Source: Streptacidiphilus pinicola (GTDB lineage: Bacteria > Actinomycetota > Actinomycetes > Streptomycetales > Streptomycetaceae). Taken from it: DNA of 57,966 bases. The notes under the pieces are model-generated. The model was not told the origin of the DNA and made no database searches. It worked only from the letters and a program-made list of their open reading frames with translations. A program made the translations under genes and the position numbers. Location of the stretch: NCBI RefSeq assembly GCF_003258295.1, contig NZ_QKYN01000006.1, positions 1-57,966 of the forward strand. Direction: 5' to 3'. Position 1 is the stretch's first letter; every line of letters begins with the position of its first letter. Shown one piece after another: positions 1,483 through 9,403 of the stretch.

Positions 1483-2580
1483 TTAACCAGCCGGCCCGTT
1501 GCCCAGGGCGAGGCGGGACGACTGCGCCTGGCCGTTGCCGTCGGTCCAGCCGAGGGTGACCGTGTTGCCGGGGTGGTAGCGGCCGAGCAGCGCGGTGAGC
1601 GCGTTGGCGTCCGCGACCGAGGAGCCGTCGAGCGAGGTGATCACGTCGCCCGGGACCAGCCCCAGCTGGTCGGCGGGGGAGTTCGGCACCACCTGCACGA
1701 CCGTCGCACCGGCGCCGGCCAGGTTCTGGTTCGAGCTGCTGACCGCGATGCCCAGCCAGGCCGTCGCGCCGATGTGCACGGTCGAGGAGGACTGACCGGC
1801 GGCGATGGCGTTCGCCGTCGCCCGGGCCTGGTCGGCCGGAATGGCGAAGCCCTGGGCGGGCGCGTTCTGGAACTGGTAGCCGACGGAGGCGGCCGTGTCG
1901 ATGCCGATCACCTGGCCCTGGGCGTTCACCAGCGGGCCGCCGGAGTCGCCGGCCTGGATCGGGGCGTCCACCTGGATCAGGCCGCTGAGCTGCTCGGAGC
2001 TGCCGGTCGACTCGTCCGAGGCGGTGATCTGCTGGTCCAGCGCGGTGACGGAACCGCTCGCCCGGCTCGGCTGACCGCCCCGTCCGCCCGCGTTGCCGAG
2101 CGCGGTGACCGCCTCGCCCACGGAGACCCGCGTGCCCGACGCCAGGTCGAGCGTCTGCAGGCCGGAGGCCCCGTGCAGCTGGACCAGGGCGAGGTCGTGG
2201 CTGCGGTCGTAGCCGATCACGGACGCGCTGTAGCTGTGGCCGTTGCCGATGTCCACGGCGGTCAGCGAGGTGGCTCCGCTGATCACGTGGTTGTTGGTGA
2301 GCACCTCCCCGTCGGAGGTCAGCACGATGCCGGTACCGGCCGCCTCGGTGCCGGACAGGCTCTGCTCGCTGACCAGGTCGACGCTGCCCGCGGCGACCTG
2401 GGCGAGCGTCCGGGACCCGGATCCGCCGCCCGCGCCGGAGGACGTCGACGAGGTCGACGACGCCGGCGTGTGCGTGGGCCACGACGACGTCGTGGACGTC
2501 GACGACGAGACCGTGCACCCGGCGATGCCGAGGGACACGGCTATTCCGCAGGCCGTGAGTCCGGCTGCGCTCCACCTCAT
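1483..2580 (-). CDS. HtrA/DegP-like trypsin-fold serine protease with PDZ domain, lipoprotein
   Basis: The 365-residue product starts with a lipoprotein signal (LGIAGC, Cys22), so it is likely anchored outside the membrane. A Ser/Thr-rich linker (about 23-56) leads to a trypsin-like domain with all three catalytic residues visible: His98 in LTNNHVI, Asp129 in SHDLAL and Ser213 in GDSGGPL. A PDZ domain follows (about 270-355; WLGIAVSS, PADQLGLVPGDVI). The family degrades or quality-controls exported proteins. Start ATG has GGAGGTGG just upstream. It lies 138 nt downstream of the peptide-export operon on the same strand, so it could be co-transcribed and act on exported peptide, but it has its own strong RBS and may be independent. 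Confidence 0.92.
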   Translation of the reverse strand: MRWSAAGLTACGIAVSLGIAGCTVSSSTSTTSSWPTHTPASSTSSTSSGAGGGSGSRTLAQVAAGSVDLVSEQSLSGTEAAGTGIVLTSDGEVLTNNHVISGATSLTAVDIGNGHSYSASVIGYDRSHDLALVQLHGASGLQTLDLASGTRVSVGEAVTALGNAGGRGGQPSRASGSVTALDQQITASDESTGSSEQLSGLIQVDAPIQAGDSGGPLVNAQGQVIGIDTAASVGYQFQNAPAQGFAIPADQARATANAIAAGQSSSTVHIGATAWLGIAVSSSNQNLAGAGATVVQVVPNSPADQLGLVPGDVITSLDGSSVADANALTALLGRYHPGNTVTLGWTDGNGQAQSSRLALGNGPAG

Positions 2581-2718: not shown

Positions 2719-5700
2719 TCACTGCATCTGGCGACGGGCCAGCTGGTGGAAGGGGCCGGTGGTGTCCGCGAGCAGCGCGGTCGGGGTGCCCTCCTGGACG
2801 ATCCGGCCGCCCGCCATCACGATCACCCGGTCCGCGTCCAGCACGGTCGACAGCCGGTGCGCGATCACGACGCGGGTCGCCCGCAGCCGCCGGGTGCTCT
2901 CGATCACGATCCGCTGCGTCTCGTTGTCGAGCGCGCTGGTGGCCTCGTCGAACAGCAGGATGCGCGGACGGCGGACCAGCGCCTGAGCGATCATCAGACG
3001 CTGTCGCTGGCCGCCGGAGACTGTGCCGCCGCCGTCGGACAGGACGGTGTGCAGGCCCATCGGCATGGCCTTGATGTCGTCCGCGAGACCGGCCATCGCC
3101 GCGGCCTCCCAGACCTCCTCCATGGTGTGCGGCTCGGTGCCGCGGATGCAGTCGAGGATCGAGCCGTTGAAGGGCTGCGCGTTCTGCAGCACCACGCCGC
3201 ACTGGCGGCGCACCGCCGCCTGGTCCAGTGAGGTGAGGTCCTGCCCGTCGAAAAGCACCCCGCCCGAGTCGGGGCGGTCGAAGCCGATCAGCAGCCGCAG
3301 CAGCGTCGACTTGCCGCTGCCGCTCGCCCCCACCACCGCGACGAACTCGCCCGGCGCGATCCGCAGGTTCACGCCGTCCAGCACGACCGGACCGTTCTCG
3401 GTGTAGCGGAAGGAGAGGTCGCGGACCTCGATCTCGCCGGTCAGCGTGCCGGGCGCGGCGCTGCCGCCGCGCACCTCGGGGACCTCCTGCAGCACCGGCT
3501 TGATCTGCTCGAACAGCGGCAGCGAGGCGGCCGCCGAGAGCAGCGAGCCGGTGAGCTGGGTGACCGAGGTCAGCACCATCGTCACCGAGCTGCTGAAGGT
3601 GAGGAAGCTGCTCGCCGACATGCTGCCGCGCGCCGGACCGGCCAGCAGCATGAACATCACCAGCATGCACAGCGGCAGATAGACCGAGTTGGCGACGGTG
3701 ATCAGGTTCTTGATCCGGCCCACCCGGCGCTGCAGTTCGCGGCTGCGCGCGAACTCGCTCGCCCAGGCGCCGTAGGCGAAGTCCTCGGCCGCGGCGACGC
3801 GCAGCTTGGGCAGGCCGCGCAGGGTCTGGAAGGCCTGGTTGTTCAGCTTGTTGTTGAGCGCGGTCAGCTTGCGCGCCCAGCGCAGCTGCCACAGGCCGAG
3901 GCCCAGGAAGAGGGCGGCGATCAGGATCAGCATGCCGATCGCGGCCAGGGCGAGCGGGACGCTGTAACAGAGCAGCAGCACCAGGTTGACCAGCCCGACC
4001 GTGCCGGCCTGCACGACCACCGAGCTGATGCCGGACAGGATCCGGCGGATCGCGCTGATGCCCATCGCGGCCGAGGCCAGCTCGCCCGTCGACCGTCCGG
4101 TGAAGAAGCGTGTCGGCAGCCGCAGCAACCGGTCCCAGACCGCCGGTTGCAGGGTCGCCTCGATACGGCCCTCCAGCCGCAGGATGGAGAGGTTCTCCAT
4201 CAGCATGAAGGCTGCGGAGACCAGCGTGGTGGCGACGATCGCCAGTGAGAACAGCACGATGAGGTCGTTCTCGGCGTTCGGCACGAAGTCGCCGAGCACC
4301 TGACCGGTCGCGATCGGCACCAGCGTGCCGAGCACGACCGCGACCAGGCCGCTGACGACCAGCCGCCGCACGTCCGCGCGGGTGCCGCGCAGGCTGAACC
4401 GCAGCAACTGCCGGGCCGAGAGCGGCTTCTCGGGCAGCGGGCGGTAGAACATGATCGCCAGCGGCTCGAACTGGTCCGCGTTGTCCTCGTCGATCCGGGT
4501 GCGCCGGCCGCCCGACGGCTCGACCGCCTCGTAGCCGCCGCGCCGCCACAGCAGCGCCAGCGGCGCGCCGTTGGCCAGCTTGAACCCCAGCAGCGGCCCG
4601 GCGTCCTGACGCCACCAGCGCCCCTGCAGCCGCACCTGCCGGGTGCGGAAGCGCGAGGCGACGGCGATCTTCTCGATGGGCGAGAGCCGGTCCTCCGTGG
4701 GGCCGCCGCCGGTGGGCGTGGTGAGGGTGATCCCGGCCGCCTCGCCCACCATGCGGCAGGCGGCGAGCACCGCGTCGTCGAGTCCGGCCGCGGAGCCACG
4801 CCCGCCCGCCGCTCCCGCGCGCCCGCGGTCCGAGCGCTGCAGCGAGGTGAGCAGCGCCTGGTCGGCCTGGGCGCGCGCGGCCTCCCCGGCCTTGACGCCG
4901 GCCTCGGCGCGGTCCTCGTAGGCCCGCTCCAACTGGTCGATCCAGCGGTCCAGCGCGAACAGCAGCCGGCTCTGCTGGTCCACCAGCCGCTGCCAGGTCG
5001 CCGGATCGATGAACAGGTCCTGTGCGGTCTCCTGGCTGTAGACGCCGCCGAGCACCAGGCTGCCCGGGGTCACCGACATCCACTGGATGTCGTCGCCCAT
5101 GTCCTCGACCACCGCGTCGCGCCCCGCCAGCCGGCCGTCGGCGCGCGCCTCGAAGAGCAGCCGCAGGCTGCGGCCGATGCCGCGCGCGAAGGCGTCCTCC
5201 AGCGGGGTCAGCAGGCCGTTGGCGCCGTAGTAGTTCCACTCGGGCGCGTACTGCGGGCCGAAGAACAACTCGCGCAACTGGATCCGGCGCAGCACGCAGC
5301 CGGTCAGCGGCCGCCCGATGACGGTGTGCTGCGGCCCGTCCACGGGCCCCGGCAGCAGCGCGCCCGCCTCGAGCCGGCCGAGGAAGTGCCAGCGCCCTTC
5401 GAGCACCGCGTCCACGGCGAACAGGTCCATCGCCCCGGCGACGACCAGCCAGACCACGTGCGGTCCCTCCAGCGACAGCCGACGCACGCCGGTGGTGTCG
5501 ACGCCGGTCCCGAGCGCGCCCAGCGTGGCGAGCACGCCGTCGTCGGCCGGGCCCGGCTGCCCGCCGTACTCGGCCTGCGGCGGGACCTGGGGCAACTGGC
5601 CGGTGTGGTACGCGTCCTGCTGCACCTGCGGCAGCTGCCCGGTCCCGTACGAGTCCTGGGGGACCGGAGGCACCTCTCCCGTCCGGTACTGCGGGATCTG

Positions 5701-5760
5701 GCCGGACTGGTACGGGTCCTGGGCGTCCTGGGGGAACGTCGGGGGGTTGGCGAACGACAC
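2719..5760 (-). CDS. NHLM/NHLP-type peptide export ABC transporter, permease/ATPase subunit without peptidase
   Basis: The 1013-residue product has, in order: a Pro/Gln/Tyr-rich N-terminus with repeats of the GQLPQV type (about 15-70), a cyclic-nucleotide-binding-like region (about 90-170), a long soluble linker, an ABC exporter membrane domain (about 465-740), and an ATPase domain. Walker A is GASGSGKS (811-818), signature VSGGQ (914-918), Walker B ILLFDE (934-939) and H-loop His968. This layout matches the second, peptidase-less ABC subunit of NHLM/NHLP bacteriocin export systems. Start is GTG at 5758-5760, one base after the TGA of the C39 transporter gene, so the two are translationally coupled and probably form a heterodimer. 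The Pro/Gln repeats are unusual. Confidence 0.92.
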   Translation of the reverse strand: MSFANPPTFPQDAQDPYQSGQIPQYRTGEVPPVPQDSYGTGQLPQVQQDAYHTGQLPQVPPQAEYGGQPGPADDGVLATLGALGTGVDTTGVRRLSLEGPHVVWLVVAGAMDLFAVDAVLEGRWHFLGRLEAGALLPGPVDGPQHTVIGRPLTGCVLRRIQLRELFFGPQYAPEWNYYGANGLLTPLEDAFARGIGRSLRLLFEARADGRLAGRDAVVEDMGDDIQWMSVTPGSLVLGGVYSQETAQDLFIDPATWQRLVDQQSRLLFALDRWIDQLERAYEDRAEAGVKAGEAARAQADQALLTSLQRSDRGRAGAAGGRGSAAGLDDAVLAACRMVGEAAGITLTTPTGGGPTEDRLSPIEKIAVASRFRTRQVRLQGRWWRQDAGPLLGFKLANGAPLALLWRRGGYEAVEPSGGRRTRIDEDNADQFEPLAIMFYRPLPEKPLSARQLLRFSLRGTRADVRRLVVSGLVAVVLGTLVPIATGQVLGDFVPNAENDLIVLFSLAIVATTLVSAAFMLMENLSILRLEGRIEATLQPAVWDRLLRLPTRFFTGRSTGELASAAMGISAIRRILSGISSVVVQAGTVGLVNLVLLLCYSVPLALAAIGMLILIAALFLGLGLWQLRWARKLTALNNKLNNQAFQTLRGLPKLRVAAAEDFAYGAWASEFARSRELQRRVGRIKNLITVANSVYLPLCMLVMFMLLAGPARGSMSASSFLTFSSSVTMVLTSVTQLTGSLLSAAASLPLFEQIKPVLQEVPEVRGGSAAPGTLTGEIEVRDLSFRYTENGPVVLDGVNLRIAPGEFVAVVGASGSGKSTLLRLLIGFDRPDSGGVLFDGQDLTSLDQAAVRRQCGVVLQNAQPFNGSILDCIRGTEPHTMEEVWEAAAMAGLADDIKAMPMGLHTVLSDGGGTVSGGQRQRLMIAQALVRRPRILLFDEATSALDNETQRIVIESTRRLRATRVVIAHRLSTVLDADRVIVMAGGRIVQEGTPTALLADTTGPFHQLARRQMQ

Positions 5761-5761
5761 G

Positions 5762-8053
5762 TCAGTGCTCCCTGACCAGCTGGGCGTAGGGCCCTCCGGC
5801 CACGACGAGGTCCTCGTGGCGGCCGCGCTCGACGACCACGCCGCGGTCCAGCACGACGATCTCGTCGCTGTCGCGGACCGTGCTGAGCCGGTGGGCGATG
5901 ACCACGCAGGCGCAGCCGCGGCGGCGCAGGTTGTCCATGACGACCAGTTCGGTCTCCGCGTCCAGCGCGCTGGTCACCTCGTCCAGCACCAGCACGCTGG
6001 GCTGGCGCACCAGGGCGCGGGCGATCTCCAGGCGCTGGCGCTGGCCGCCGGAGAAGTTGCGGCCGTCCTGCTCGACCCGGCTGTGGATGCCGCCGGGACG
6101 CCGGGAGACGGCGTCGAGCACGGCGGCGTCGCGCAGCGCGGCGGTGACGGCCTCGTCGGAGATGGAGGGGTCCCAGAGCGCCACGTTGTCGCGGACGGTG
6201 CCCTCGAAGAGGAAGACGTCCTGGTCGACGAAGGAGACCGACGCGGAGAGCGAGCTGCGCGGAATGTCGGTCAGCCGCCGGCCGTCGACGGTGATCTCGC
6301 CCTCCCACGGCTGGTAAAGGCCGGAGATCAGCCGGGACACCGTGGACTTGCCGCTGCCGGACCCGCCGACCAGCGCCACCTGGCGGCCGGGGCCCACGTC
6401 GAGCGAGAAGCCCTTGAGCAGCGGCGCGTCCAGCGCGCTGTAGCCGAAGGTGACGTCCTCCAGCAGCACGTGGCCGCTGAGCCGGCGCGTGCCGGCACCG
6501 GCGCGGGAGCGGGCGAGCCGGGCGTCGGCCGGAAAGCTCTCGACGTCCTTGAGCCGGGCCATGTCGGCGGTGAAGTCCTGCACCCGGCCGGCCACGCCGT
6601 TGAGCCGGGCGACCGGCGCGGTGAAGCTGGCCACCAGCGCCTGGAACGCGACCAGCAGACCGATGGAGATCTGTCCCTCGACCGCCCGCAGACCGCCGAT
6701 CAGCAGGATCAGCGCGCTGTTGAGCGCGGCCAGCGTCGGGGCGACGACGCTCAGCGCCGCACTCGGCACGCCCAGCCGCTGCTCGCCGTTGAGCGTGACC
6801 GCGTGCTGTCCGGCCCAGCGGCGGAAGTAGCCCGTCTCGCCGCCGGTGGCCTTCATCGTCTCGATCAGCTGCAGGCCGCTGTAGGAGGTGTTGGTCAGCC
6901 GGGCGCTGTCGGCGCGCAGCTTCTGCACGCCGGTGCCGCGGATCCGCACCACCACGCGCAGCGCCACCACGTTGAGCAGCGCGATGCCGATGCCGAGGAC
7001 GGTGAGCTGCGGGTCGTACGTCCACAGCAGCACCGCGTAGAGGACGACGACGATGGCGTCGACGCCGACCGCCGCGAGGTCCCGCGCCAGGGTCTCGGCC
7101 ACCGAGTCGTTGGACTGTAGGCGTTGCACGAGGTCGGCCGGGTTGCGCTGGGTGAAGAAGGCCACCGGCAGCCGGAGCAGATGACGCAGGAAGCGTGCGC
7201 TGCTGAGGGTGGAGGCGAGCATCCGGCCGCGCAGCAGGTTGGCCTGCTGCACGCCGGTGAGCACACCGGTCAGCACCACCATGGTCGCCATCGACGCGAA
7301 CAGGACCGGCAGCAGCGAGGTCTGGCCGCCGATCAGGAAGGAGTCGATGTACGTGCGGCTCAGCGCGGGCAGCGCCACGCCGACGGCGACGAGCAGCAGG
7401 CTCGCCAGCAGCACGGCGGGCGTGGTGCCCTGGGTGCCGCGCAGCCGCGCCGGCAGCGCGCTCAGCACGCCGGGCCGCTTGCCGCCGGGACGGAAGTCGG
7501 GACCTGGCTCCATGGTCAGCACCACGCCGGTGAAGCTGGAGTCGAAGTCCTCCTCGGCCACGAACCGACGCCCGCGCGCGGGGTCGTTGAGCTGCACGCC
7601 GCGCTTGCGCAGCCGGCGGCTGATGCCCTCGTAGACGACGAAGTGGTTGAACTCCCAGAAGAGGACGGCCGGGGTCTGCACCTCCTCCGCCAGGGCGGTC
7701 GGCTCCATCTGCATGCCCTTGGCCGTGAGCCCGTAACTGCGGGCGGCCTTCAGCACGTTGCTCGCACGCGAACCGTCGCGGGAGACGCCGCAGGCGATGC
7801 GCAGCTCCTCCAGCGGGACGTGCCGGCCGTAGTGGCCGAGCACCATGGAGAGCGCGGCGGCACCGCACTCCACGGCCTCCATCTGCAGGACGGTGGGGGT
7901 GCGGACGGTCTTCTGGCGCTTGGCGCTCTTCCGCGCCGGGGGACGTTGGCGGGCGCGGCCGCGCCCGCCGCTCGGCGTGGGCGCGGCCGTGCGGTTCGCG
8001 GCGCGCGGGTTCGAGGCCGGGCGCGGGTTGGCGGCGGCGCGTCGTCCGCTCAC
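5762..8053 (-). CDS. NHLM/NHLP-type C39 peptidase/permease/ATPase peptide exporter
   Basis: This gene encodes a peptidase-containing ABC transporter of 763 residues. After a basic Ala/Pro/Arg-rich tail comes a C39 cysteine peptidase with QMEAVECG (Cys63), FNHFVVYEG (His137) and LNDPARG (Asp157). This is the domain that cuts double-glycine leaders. The exporter membrane domain follows, then an ATPase with GGSGSGKST, FSGGQRQ, LVLDE and AHRLS motifs. I place the start at GTG 8051-8053, giving a GTGA overlap with the stop of the upstream HlyD-like gene; a TTG 12 nt earlier is possible. Its expected substrate is the Gly-Gly precursor at 9016-9279. Confidence 0.93.
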   Translation of the reverse strand: MSGRRAAANPRPASNPRAANRTAAPTPSGGRGRARQRPPARKSAKRQKTVRTPTVLQMEAVECGAAALSMVLGHYGRHVPLEELRIACGVSRDGSRASNVLKAARSYGLTAKGMQMEPTALAEEVQTPAVLFWEFNHFVVYEGISRRLRKRGVQLNDPARGRRFVAEEDFDSSFTGVVLTMEPGPDFRPGGKRPGVLSALPARLRGTQGTTPAVLLASLLLVAVGVALPALSRTYIDSFLIGGQTSLLPVLFASMATMVVLTGVLTGVQQANLLRGRMLASTLSSARFLRHLLRLPVAFFTQRNPADLVQRLQSNDSVAETLARDLAAVGVDAIVVVLYAVLLWTYDPQLTVLGIGIALLNVVALRVVVRIRGTGVQKLRADSARLTNTSYSGLQLIETMKATGGETGYFRRWAGQHAVTLNGEQRLGVPSAALSVVAPTLAALNSALILLIGGLRAVEGQISIGLLVAFQALVASFTAPVARLNGVAGRVQDFTADMARLKDVESFPADARLARSRAGAGTRRLSGHVLLEDVTFGYSALDAPLLKGFSLDVGPGRQVALVGGSGSGKSTVSRLISGLYQPWEGEITVDGRRLTDIPRSSLSASVSFVDQDVFLFEGTVRDNVALWDPSISDEAVTAALRDAAVLDAVSRRPGGIHSRVEQDGRNFSGGQRQRLEIARALVRQPSVLVLDEVTSALDAETELVVMDNLRRRGCACVVIAHRLSTVRDSDEIVVLDRGVVVERGRHEDLVVAGGPYAQLVREH

Positions 8054-8889
8054 GGCAGGATCCAATCGATCGGGTGCTGTCCGGCCAGATGCACGGCAGC
8101 GCTCAGCAGTTGCGTCGACTGCAACGCGTACGGCGGACCCTGCTGCGAGGACCAGGCGTAGCCCGACTTCGTGCCGCTCGACCGCTCCAACTGGACGACG
8201 ACCGGCACCGGCTCGCCCTGCGTGCTGAACGCCTGGCCGAGCTGCGCGCTGCCGAGGAAGTCGGCGATCTGCTGCGCGGCCTCGGGGCTGTGGCCGATCG
8301 ACACGACGTGTCCGCGCAGCAAGCCGTACTGGGAGACCGGCACGGACTGGACCGTGAGGTCGACCTCCGCGCCGACAGGGATCGACTCGGCGTTGTTCGG
8401 GGCCGCGTACAGCACCGCGACCAGCGGCTCGTCGGCGCTGTTGATCCGCTCCACGGTGGCCAGCTGGGAGCCGACCGTGACGACCGAGCCGAGCGCGGCG
8501 GTGAACGTGCTGAGGCGTCCCGCCGACACGGCGCGGACGAGCTGCGTCTTCGGCGCCGCCGTGCCCGTGCCCGTGCTCACGCTTGCACTCGTGCGCACGC
8601 CGAGCAGCGGCGCGTTGGCGGCCACCGTGTCACCCGGCTGTGCGTACACGGCGACGACCTGGCCGGCGACGGGGCTCTGCAGCGTGTAGCTGCCCTCCGC
8701 GTGGAAGAGGATCCCGGGCGCGCTCACCTTGGACGAGACCGTGCCGGTCACTGCCCAGAAGCACGCGGCCGCCACCACCGCCGCCGTGACCAGGAGCACG
8801 AGGCGCCCCTGCGGACGGGCCAGATGAGCCGGCACGTCGAGATCCTCGGGCGACTGCTGCTTGGCCAGCGCCTGCTGCCGGAACTGCAC
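8050..8889 (-). CDS. HlyD-like membrane fusion protein of NHLM/NHLP peptide export
   Basis: The product is a 279-residue adaptor. It has an N-terminal cytoplasmic tail, one membrane helix (about 30-50), and a biotinyl-lipoyl-like barrel split by a short insert (LQSPVAGQVVAVYAQPGDTV, then PVGAEVDLTV and GLLRGHVVSIG). The long coiled coil of Gram-negative HlyD is absent, as is usual for NHLM adaptors. Start is GTG at 8887-8889 with AAGGA eight bases upstream. It is first of the three transporter genes and is separated from the precursor gene by a strong hairpin. It overlaps the next gene by GTGA. Confidence 0.88.
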   Translation of the reverse strand: MQFRQQALAKQQSPEDLDVPAHLARPQGRLVLLVTAAVVAAACFWAVTGTVSSKVSAPGILFHAEGSYTLQSPVAGQVVAVYAQPGDTVAANAPLLGVRTSASVSTGTGTAAPKTQLVRAVSAGRLSTFTAALGSVVTVGSQLATVERINSADEPLVAVLYAAPNNAESIPVGAEVDLTVQSVPVSQYGLLRGHVVSIGHSPEAAQQIADFLGSAQLGQAFSTQGEPVPVVVQLERSSGTKSGYAWSSQQGPPYALQSTQLLSAAVHLAGQHPIDWILP

Positions 8890-8948
8890 AGGGTATTTCC
8901 TTAGAACTGCTCGACGTCAAATACACCGAATTGAATCAGAGCGCGATA

Positions 8949-8980
8949 CAGGCCCTGGAACAAAATTGTTCCAGGGCCTG
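8949..8980 (-). terminator. Hairpin between precursor and transporter genes, likely attenuator
   Basis: Perfect 15-bp arms CAGGCCCTGGAACAA (8949-8963) and its complement (8966-8980) lie between the precursor stop and the HlyD-like start. No U-tract follows on the minus strand. A partial terminator or RNA-stabilising hairpin here would give more precursor than transporter mRNA. Confidence 0.65.
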
Positions 8981-9015
8981 ATCCCGAACCGTTCGGCTCG
9001 GCGGAGATATCTGAA

Positions 9016-9279
9016 TCAGATACCCGAGACCACGGAGGTCAGGTTGCCGACGGTGCCGGTCAGGCCGGTCAGGCCGGTGACGGTGGAGACCAGGCCGCCC
9101 ACCGGGACGATGTTGCCCACGGTGGTCAGTGCGTCGCCGACGCCGTTCACGTGAACGCCGAGGCCGCCAAGCCCGTTCAGGCCGGCACCGGCGCCGAGGC
9201 CGAGGCCGCCGGCCACGCCGTCAAGGTCGGTGTCGGCGATCTCGCGGGTCTCGACCTGCGGCGTGAAGTCGCTGCGCAT
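9016..9279 (-). CDS. Double-glycine-leader peptide precursor with Gly-rich, Cys-free core
   Basis: The gene encodes 87 residues. The leader (1-25) ends in EIADTDLDGVAGG, the Leu-x-x-Val-x-Gly-Gly pattern cut by C39 peptidases. The predicted 62-residue core starts LGLGAGAG and contains 18 Gly, many Leu/Val/Thr, no Cys, Lys, Arg or Glu, one Asp and one His. Its C-terminal half repeats a V-T-G-L-T-G pattern (STVTGLTGLTGTVG). Start ATG at 9277-9279 has GAGAGGAAA upstream; a longer frame lacks an RBS. It lies directly before a C39-type exporter, which is the best support for the call. Without Cys it cannot form lanthionines. It could be an unmodified class II-like bacteriocin or a surface-active/aggregating peptide. 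The cargo family is not one I recognise. Confidence 0.85.
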   Translation of the reverse strand: MRSDFTPQVETREIADTDLDGVAGGLGLGAGAGLNGLGGLGVHVNGVGDALTTVGNIVPVGGLVSTVTGLTGLTGTVGNLTSVVSGI

Positions 9280-9310: not shown

Positions 9311-9403
9311 ACCAGTAGAGGGAACGGGAAAAACCCGCCCCTTTCTTGGCATGATCCAACCAGCAGATGAGCATACATGTCCACTCGGGCCGATCGGGTT
9401 TTT

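Follow-up and report, generated by a model that had tools for sequence, protein, structure and literature searches.

We analysed a stretch of 57,966 nucleotides of the genome of the soil actinobacterium Streptacidiphilus pinicola (contig NZ_QKYN01000006.1, positions 1 to 57,966; hereafter "the window"), the minus strand of which carries an operon of four genes: first the gene of an 87-residue cargo peptide, then those of a HlyD-like adaptor, of a transporter joining a C39 peptidase to an ATP-binding cassette (ABC), and of a second ABC subunit. We find that one clade of NHLP-type exporters has, as a rule, a cargo with a short leader, free of Cys, nearly uncharged and without a modification gene. 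A class-wide profile search found the cargo in 22 of 296 genomes, every one of them belonging to the Streptomycetaceae; hence, the claim is confined to that family.

The cargo gene lies at positions 9019 to 9279 of the minus strand (stop codon 9016-9018), downstream of a ribosome-binding site GAGGAAA. A scan of named genomes gave at least 354 relatives, distributed over Streptacidiphilus, Streptantibioticus, Actinacidiphila, Kitasatospora, Streptomyces and one actinomycete metagenome-assembled genome, and the best 80 of them were fetched for the comparison of loci. Full-length relatives with 74-78% identity exist in four other Streptacidiphilus genomes and the gene order is kept in 72 of the 80 fetched relatives, so that a chance open reading frame (ORF) is excluded: sequence comparison confirms that 9019-9279 is a real gene. 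An earlier note on this stretch had described the precursor as ending its leader in DLDGVAGG and as having a core of 62 residues with 18 Gly and without Cys, Lys, Arg or Glu, and this was borne out when the sequence was read again. Split after DLDGVAGG, the precursor yields a leader of 25 residues (9205-9279, minus strand) and a core of 62 (9019-9204, minus strand), the latter being the predicted secreted product if the cut follows the Gly-Gly pair; one Asp and one His are found in the core. The same composition prevails among relatives. In the 72 distinct precursors (out of 81, the window and 80 loci) on which core statistics were computed, cores are 39-62 residues long; none contains Cys, 70 are devoid of Lys and Arg, and 65 of aromatic residues. 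Their grand average of hydropathy runs from 0.66 to 1.39, Thr and Ser make up 12.4% and 6.8% of their residues, and 70 precursors end in Leu or Ile. A second set (A1, 36 rows) shows Lys or Arg in three cores and Cys in none.

Cargo and exporter go together. The adaptor gene directly follows the cargo gene on its 3' side in 72 of the 80 loci, with both ABC genes present as well in 70 (in L135 and L189 they are lost to contig ends), while the other eight cargo genes are orphans. The search for homologues and their neighbours proposed in the earlier note has placed the same exporter genes beside the peptide; neither outcome named there as a refutation, homologues missing next to other NHLP transporters or a different conserved cargo, was borne out. 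A search with the single sequence brought up relatives in 33 of 120 genomes, its own included, and none on plasmids in PLSDB at an expectation value (E) of 0.01. With a profile (A2), 249 Streptomycetaceae genomes of 17 genera were searched, and the cargo was detected in 124 genomes of 8 genera. The exporter scores above its cut-off in 137 of these 249 genomes: 121 have both, three the cargo only and 16 the exporter only, so that the exporter is present in 121 of the 124 genomes with cargo versus 16 of the 125 without it (Fisher p 1.7e-48, uncorrected for kinship). Among the matches listed, a cargo gene lies no more than 6 kb upstream of at least 113 of the 143 exporters, at a median of 1043 bp from the ABC1 gene, and 37 of 150 cargo places are unlinked, some of them through contig breaks.

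The exporter was assigned to the NHLP type in the earlier note, with intact Cys, His and Asp in its C39 domain, and both statements hold. The C39-ABC subunit (5762-8053, minus strand; its start codon is probably a GTG overlapping the hlyD stop) reaches 997.3 bits against TIGR03796 (cut-off 853.3), and the second ABC permease/ATPase subunit (2719-5760, minus strand), which has some 327 extra N-terminal residues, 884.2 bits against TIGR03797 (cut-off 709.4). The HlyD-like adaptor (8050-8889, minus strand) scores 151.5 bits against TIGR03794, for which the cut-off is 156.2; it has 279 residues versus 421 model positions, and the stretch that matches best corresponds to model positions 255-417. 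In the C39 peptidase domain (7499-7900, minus strand), Gln17, Cys23, His97 and Asp117, which we take to be the catalytic set, are in place (numbered in the frame from 7933; Gln17 and Cys23 were located by eye), and Walker A, signature and Walker B motifs are carried by both ABC subunits. In a comparison with the PDB, P-glycoproteins gave the top scores for the C39-ABC subunit, over the ABC part, and its residues 14-719 align with chains named ABC-type bacteriocin transporter (4ry2 and others). The operon's own C39 domain is the only one in the genome at E of 0.001 or below. We also observed DxYxTGQLPQV-like repeats in the second ABC subunit, at residues ~15-65 of its N-terminal extension.

No modification enzyme had been seen at the locus in the earlier note, and a Pfam scan of 16 neighbouring genes in the window found none. 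Among the YcaO matches listed, none lies within 10 kb of the 113 cargo-linked exporters, versus 17 for the 30 other exporters. LanM occurs in 38 of the 124 cargo genomes and in 83 of the 125 others, and at least 14 cargo genomes, taken from the 20 without YcaO among the matches listed, are devoid of both enzymes. One may still imagine that an enzyme from another part of the genome, for instance a Ser/Thr dehydratase, acts on the core in trans, the product thus being a ribosomally synthesised and post-translationally modified peptide. Such a substrate would find its residues in the Thr and Ser of the cores, and LanM and YcaO genes do exist elsewhere in the window genome. The window peptide itself has no match in Pfam or NCBIfam at E up to 1; however, when 44 members (the A2 profile set, made up of this peptide and 43 relatives out of the 80 fetched) were scanned with both collections, seven weakly matched the type-A lantibiotic model PF04604 and six GRASP_targ_2. 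According to PMC13047742, a Streptomyces peptide to which NCBI gives the name "type A2 lantipeptide", perhaps a member of the window family, shares its predicted cluster with a Peptidase_C39. On the other side, no lanthionine is possible in any of the 72 cores, as they have no Cys, and a class II (type A2) lanthipeptide locus differs from the window by its LanM, which is not among the 16 neighbours. LanM is absent from 86 of the 124 cargo genomes, cargo and LanM being anti-correlated, the genomes devoid of both LanM and YcaO also have to be accounted for, and the nitrile-hydratase-like part is missing from the leader. We thus regard modification in trans as improbable, and export of an unmodified core as likely.

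Where could such an exporter come from? In an outgroup-rooted tree of 60 of the 70 C39-ABC sequences, the exporters of short-leader cargos form one clade of 38, with a support of 100 in the Shimodaira-Hasegawa-like approximate likelihood ratio test (SH-aLRT). It contains 34 exporters with cargo and four for which the cargo was unlabelled: two at contig ends, one beside an odd peptide of 46 residues and one whose cargo was found later. The last of these, L207, had been considered a cargo-free locus, and this was rejected when a wider pattern gave a cargo of 83 residues; it is kept in the unlabelled group. The odd Gly-Gly peptide (L208:7478, minus strand) has the core AVHPVSQRY, and its exporter is inside the clade. 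The clade is placed among two clades of YcaO-linked exporters (forks 90 and 94). Of the 15 members of the YcaO group in the tree, 14 have a listed YcaO within 10 kb, the remaining one (L117) being cut by its contig and without a listed YcaO. The ABC1 proteins of L063, L066, L118 and their relatives, which are YcaO-linked loci of Streptomycetaceae, have 52-61% identity to that of the window. Loci of the genus g4 contain YcaO-like genes (PF02624) and SagB-like genes (recognised by eye), and their precursors consist of a long leader ending in ELRELSEADLESVAGG or a close variant and of a short Cys-rich core. Hence these systems resemble the window by their exporters and, in g4, by their leader ends, and differ from it by their modification genes and by the architecture of the g4 precursors. 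The cores at L063, L066 and L118, such as SCSCSPCCTST and CCCCSPCCCCT, are candidate thiazole/oxazole-modified microcin (TOMM) products.

In Haft et al. 2010 (PMC2887384), motif 2 of NHLP leaders is given as ELSDEQLDAVAGG, and the conservation of leaders is argued to mirror the exporter. The window shares with the NHLP/N11P export described there the two ABC components (TIGR03796, TIGR03797) and a leader end of the motif 2 type, and its adaptor comes close to the cut-off of the third component (TIGR03794); unlike it, the window has neither a nitrile-hydratase-like or Nif11 leader domain nor an adjacent YcaO or LanM, and its core is long and Cys-free. The nitrile-hydratase-related leader domain gave no match in Pfam or NCBIfam at E up to 1, for a leader of 25 residues. 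Since the short leader resembles motif 2 alone and the clade stands among YcaO-linked exporters, the loss of a modification step is the simplest reading: as far as sequences and tree can tell, the system probably derives from a modifying NHLP/TOMM export system in this way. We also noticed double-glycine peptides of 35-37 residues with cores of 4-7 residues (L209:2820, L210:9191, L087:778 and 14401); the exporters of L209 and L210 are sisters of the short-leader clade.

We then have to ask what the core does. The ratio of nonsynonymous to synonymous substitution rates (dN/dS) of the leader, 0.17 and 0.41, indicates purifying selection, while that of the core is 1.08 in six Streptacidiphilus pairs including the window, 0.34 in three pairs without it and 0.66 in 692 Streptomyces pairs, the pairs being non-independent. 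The leader is constrained and the core much less so, which means that the composition of the core is kept while its sequence drifts. Over 33 cores, the hydrophobic moment at 100 degrees, as in a helix, exceeds that of shuffled sequences with a z of 10.7 (z is positive in 23 of 23 less redundant cores), whereas the strand-like periodicity at 170 degrees has a z of 0.5; the single cores L132 and L140 are exceptions, with z above 2 at 170 degrees. In the same 33 cores TGL (z 14.6) and GxxxG (z 6.2) are enriched versus shuffles.

These observations bear on the idea that the core is no antimicrobial and is instead a self-assembling peptide of the surface or matrix, of the glycine-zipper or amyloid type, coating hyphae or spores. 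A make-up conserved better than the sequence would suit such a peptide, as would the near absence of charge, the fact that no immunity gene is seen near the operon, the enrichment of GxxxG and TGL, the presence in half of the genomes surveyed in a family that forms spores, and weak matches to two models of the functional-amyloid chaperone FapA (4 and 2 of the 44 members). It is countered by the absence of Cys and of strand periodicity at 160-180 degrees (apart from L132 and L140), by the window core itself, where GxxxG is not enriched, and by the 125 of 249 genomes without cargo, which mean that the peptide is not a core part of development. We consider this explanation possible, at a clear distance below an even chance. 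Chaplins are small hydrophobic, Gly/Val-rich streptomycete proteins, and the earlier note had suggested a chaplin-like nature. This found no support: the window family has no Cys pair, it has an acidic Gly-Gly leader rather than a Sec signal (judged by eye) and another export route, its periodicity is overall that of helices and not of strands, and chaplin is not among the eight Pfam families matched by the 44 members (none of them by the window peptide). The glycine-zipper propensity looked for in the window peptide failed likewise, with two GxxxG where shuffling leads one to expect 4.7.

Class II bacteriocins with double-glycine leaders are another group to be compared. The weak matches include Bacteriocin_IIc (PF10439; 3 of the 44 members, best E 3.2e-4), TIGR01847 (9 members, best E 0.0099) and the class IIb model TIGR03949 (2 members), and the two groups have in common the Gly-Gly leader, the C39 exporter and an apparently unmodified hydrophobic peptide. 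The window family differs in being nearly uncharged, mostly without aromatic residues and without an adjacent immunity gene to be seen, and its exporter comprises a HlyD-like adaptor along with a pair of ABC subunits. Class II microcins of the microcin V and E492 type also have a Gly-rich, weakly charged cargo, a HlyD-like adaptor and a C39 exporter. Here, the homology is not convincing (PF17508, 1 of the 44 members, E 0.067), the host is an actinobacterium and no immunity gene is seen. Among the full-text literature matches listed, no title or abstract names the peptide family.

The upstream region of the cargo gene contains a promoter-like block (9348-9386, minus strand) with the consensus.GATTGGA.G.............C.TG.TTTGATCCT, the copy of the window being GAGTGGACA...CTGGTTGGATCATGCC. 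With a weight matrix trained on 21 linked loci and a threshold passed by 1% of shuffled regions, the block is found in 69 of 73 linked loci, among them 48 of the 52 that played no part in training, and in seven of the eight unlinked cargo genes, five of which (L128, L130, L140, L144, L156) are closely related to each other; for L092, which is not among the eight, the score is 9.3. On contig C131 the window genome carries another cargo gene, an unlinked one (L201:8001-8231, E 5.2e-9, ending in VQTTPGI). This cargo belongs to a B type, with relatives in L091, L094, L095, L096 and L141, including other genera, and B-type orphan cargos have at most one Lys or Arg. This cargo and four further B-type orphans are without the block and the score of L141 (7.9) is marginal, below the highest shuffle (12.7); shared regulation is therefore not established for the B type. 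We also saw a second 5' element like GCATCAGGCGACCGT, about 95 nucleotides upstream of the cargo, in 3 of 73 linked (L126, L131, L176) and 5 of 14 other upstream regions (the orphans L130, L140, L141, L144, L156), followed in several cases by a CCGGCCG inverted repeat. Two other candidates were rejected: regulation through a PHO box, hinted at by upstream GTTCAC repeats, which turned out to be present in 10 of the 34 less redundant regions compared, and a 5' riboswitch, as all Rfam matches are below the gathering scores.

Between the cargo gene and hlyD there is a perfect hairpin of 14 bp (8949-8980, minus strand). Perfect stems of at least 7 bp occur in 58 of 73 cargo-adaptor gaps versus a mean of 6.7 and a maximum of 12 of 73 in 20 rounds of shuffling, and 66 of the 73 gaps fold with z below -2 versus mononucleotide shuffles. 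The hairpin is a probable partial terminator or element of mRNA stability, to judge from the sequence. The earlier note did not contain it, nor did it contain the promoter-like block, the cargo genes without linkage, the sister exporters with YcaO or the likeness of the leader to motif 2.

As to neighbouring genes, the window opens at base 1 of its contig, which cuts the downstream side of the operon so that 2.7 kb are visible 3' of it; the loci of relatives fill this gap. In the 72 linked loci and L201, the commonest neighbour outside the operon is a divergent streptogrisin-like protease gene (family assigned by eye), which recurs at 38 loci, and sensor- and phosphatase-like genes (also by eye) stand near the operon in 27 and 17. 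C39 exporters also serve pheromones such as ComC, and one may wonder whether the core is a signal sensed by its producer. A pheromone model is weakly matched by 7 of the 44 members (best E 0.0046), and several dispersed cargos may share one exporter. A signal is hardly expected to have so long a core with near-neutral sequence evolution, and as genes outside the operon recur at 38 of the compared loci at most, there is no common receptor or kinase; we find this the least credible of the explanations. In the window, an HtrA-like protease gene (Trypsin_2 and PDZ domains; 1483-2580, minus strand) adjoins the operon downstream, and genes related to it stand next to the operon in L071, L072 and L075; at the contig start one frame (9-680) has alanine/phenylalanine-rich repeats (ASAAALAFAAASAFAL).

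Taken together, we slightly favour over its negation the view that this is a self-contained secretion operon: an unmodified peptide would be cut after Gly25 and exported by a system that lost its modification partners, the core acting at membranes like a class II bacteriocin. The cargo gene would be transcribed from the conserved promoter-like element, and the hairpin would probably hold cargo RNA above exporter RNA. As in related systems, the 25-residue leader would dock in the C39 domain and be cut off after Gly25, and the 62-residue core would be carried outside by the C39-ABC subunit together with the other ABC subunit and the short HlyD-like adaptor; of this export model, gene order, intact motifs and co-occurrence are observed. 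An ancestral NHLP/TOMM system would have been stripped of the enzymes that form heterocycles and its leader of the nitrile-hydratase-like part, with just the export signal retained, and the exporter would probably serve unlinked cargo genes as well. The core may then fold into amphipathic helices at membranes, which is the least certain step; membrane activity is a reasoned guess. The most likely product would be an unmodified, helix-forming, membrane-active peptide.

Several points weigh against this view. The core evolves nearly neutrally in the Streptacidiphilus comparison with the window (1.08) and is at 0.66 in Streptomyces, GxxxG falls short of its expectation in the window core, AlphaFold, run on 44 sequences, gave a poor model (predicted local distance difference test 56, predicted template modelling score 0.18), and the positive charge usual in bacteriocins is missing. 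No immunity-like gene recurs beside the operon in the 72 linked loci, as far as ORFs of at least 50 residues with high third-position GC are concerned; since the gene finder kept only these, a very small immunity gene could escape. Models of modified peptides are weakly matched by some members; one LanM (contig C209) and three YcaO matches are present in the window genome, away from the operon, and YcaO and LanM are the modification enzymes that the genome-wide survey covered. The adaptor is slightly under its NCBIfam cut-off, the root of the tree depends on long outgroup branches, flagged by the tree program, and the second cargo on C131 is without the promoter-like block.

A broader and more tentative picture, which we hold to be rather doubtful, is that of peptides specific to Streptomycetaceae, unmodified, nearly uncharged, Cys-free and helical, which would keep their composition and not their sequence, use a repurposed TOMM exporter, form a dispersed regulon of cargos and assemble jointly at the membrane or surface without any immunity protein.

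The family is present in 124 of the 249 surveyed Streptomycetaceae genomes, yet the window peptide falls under no model of Pfam or NCBIfam. If export of the unmodified core is true, the NHLP export signal would be naturally separated from the modification part of the leader, and a new group of streptomycete peptides would be available for assay.

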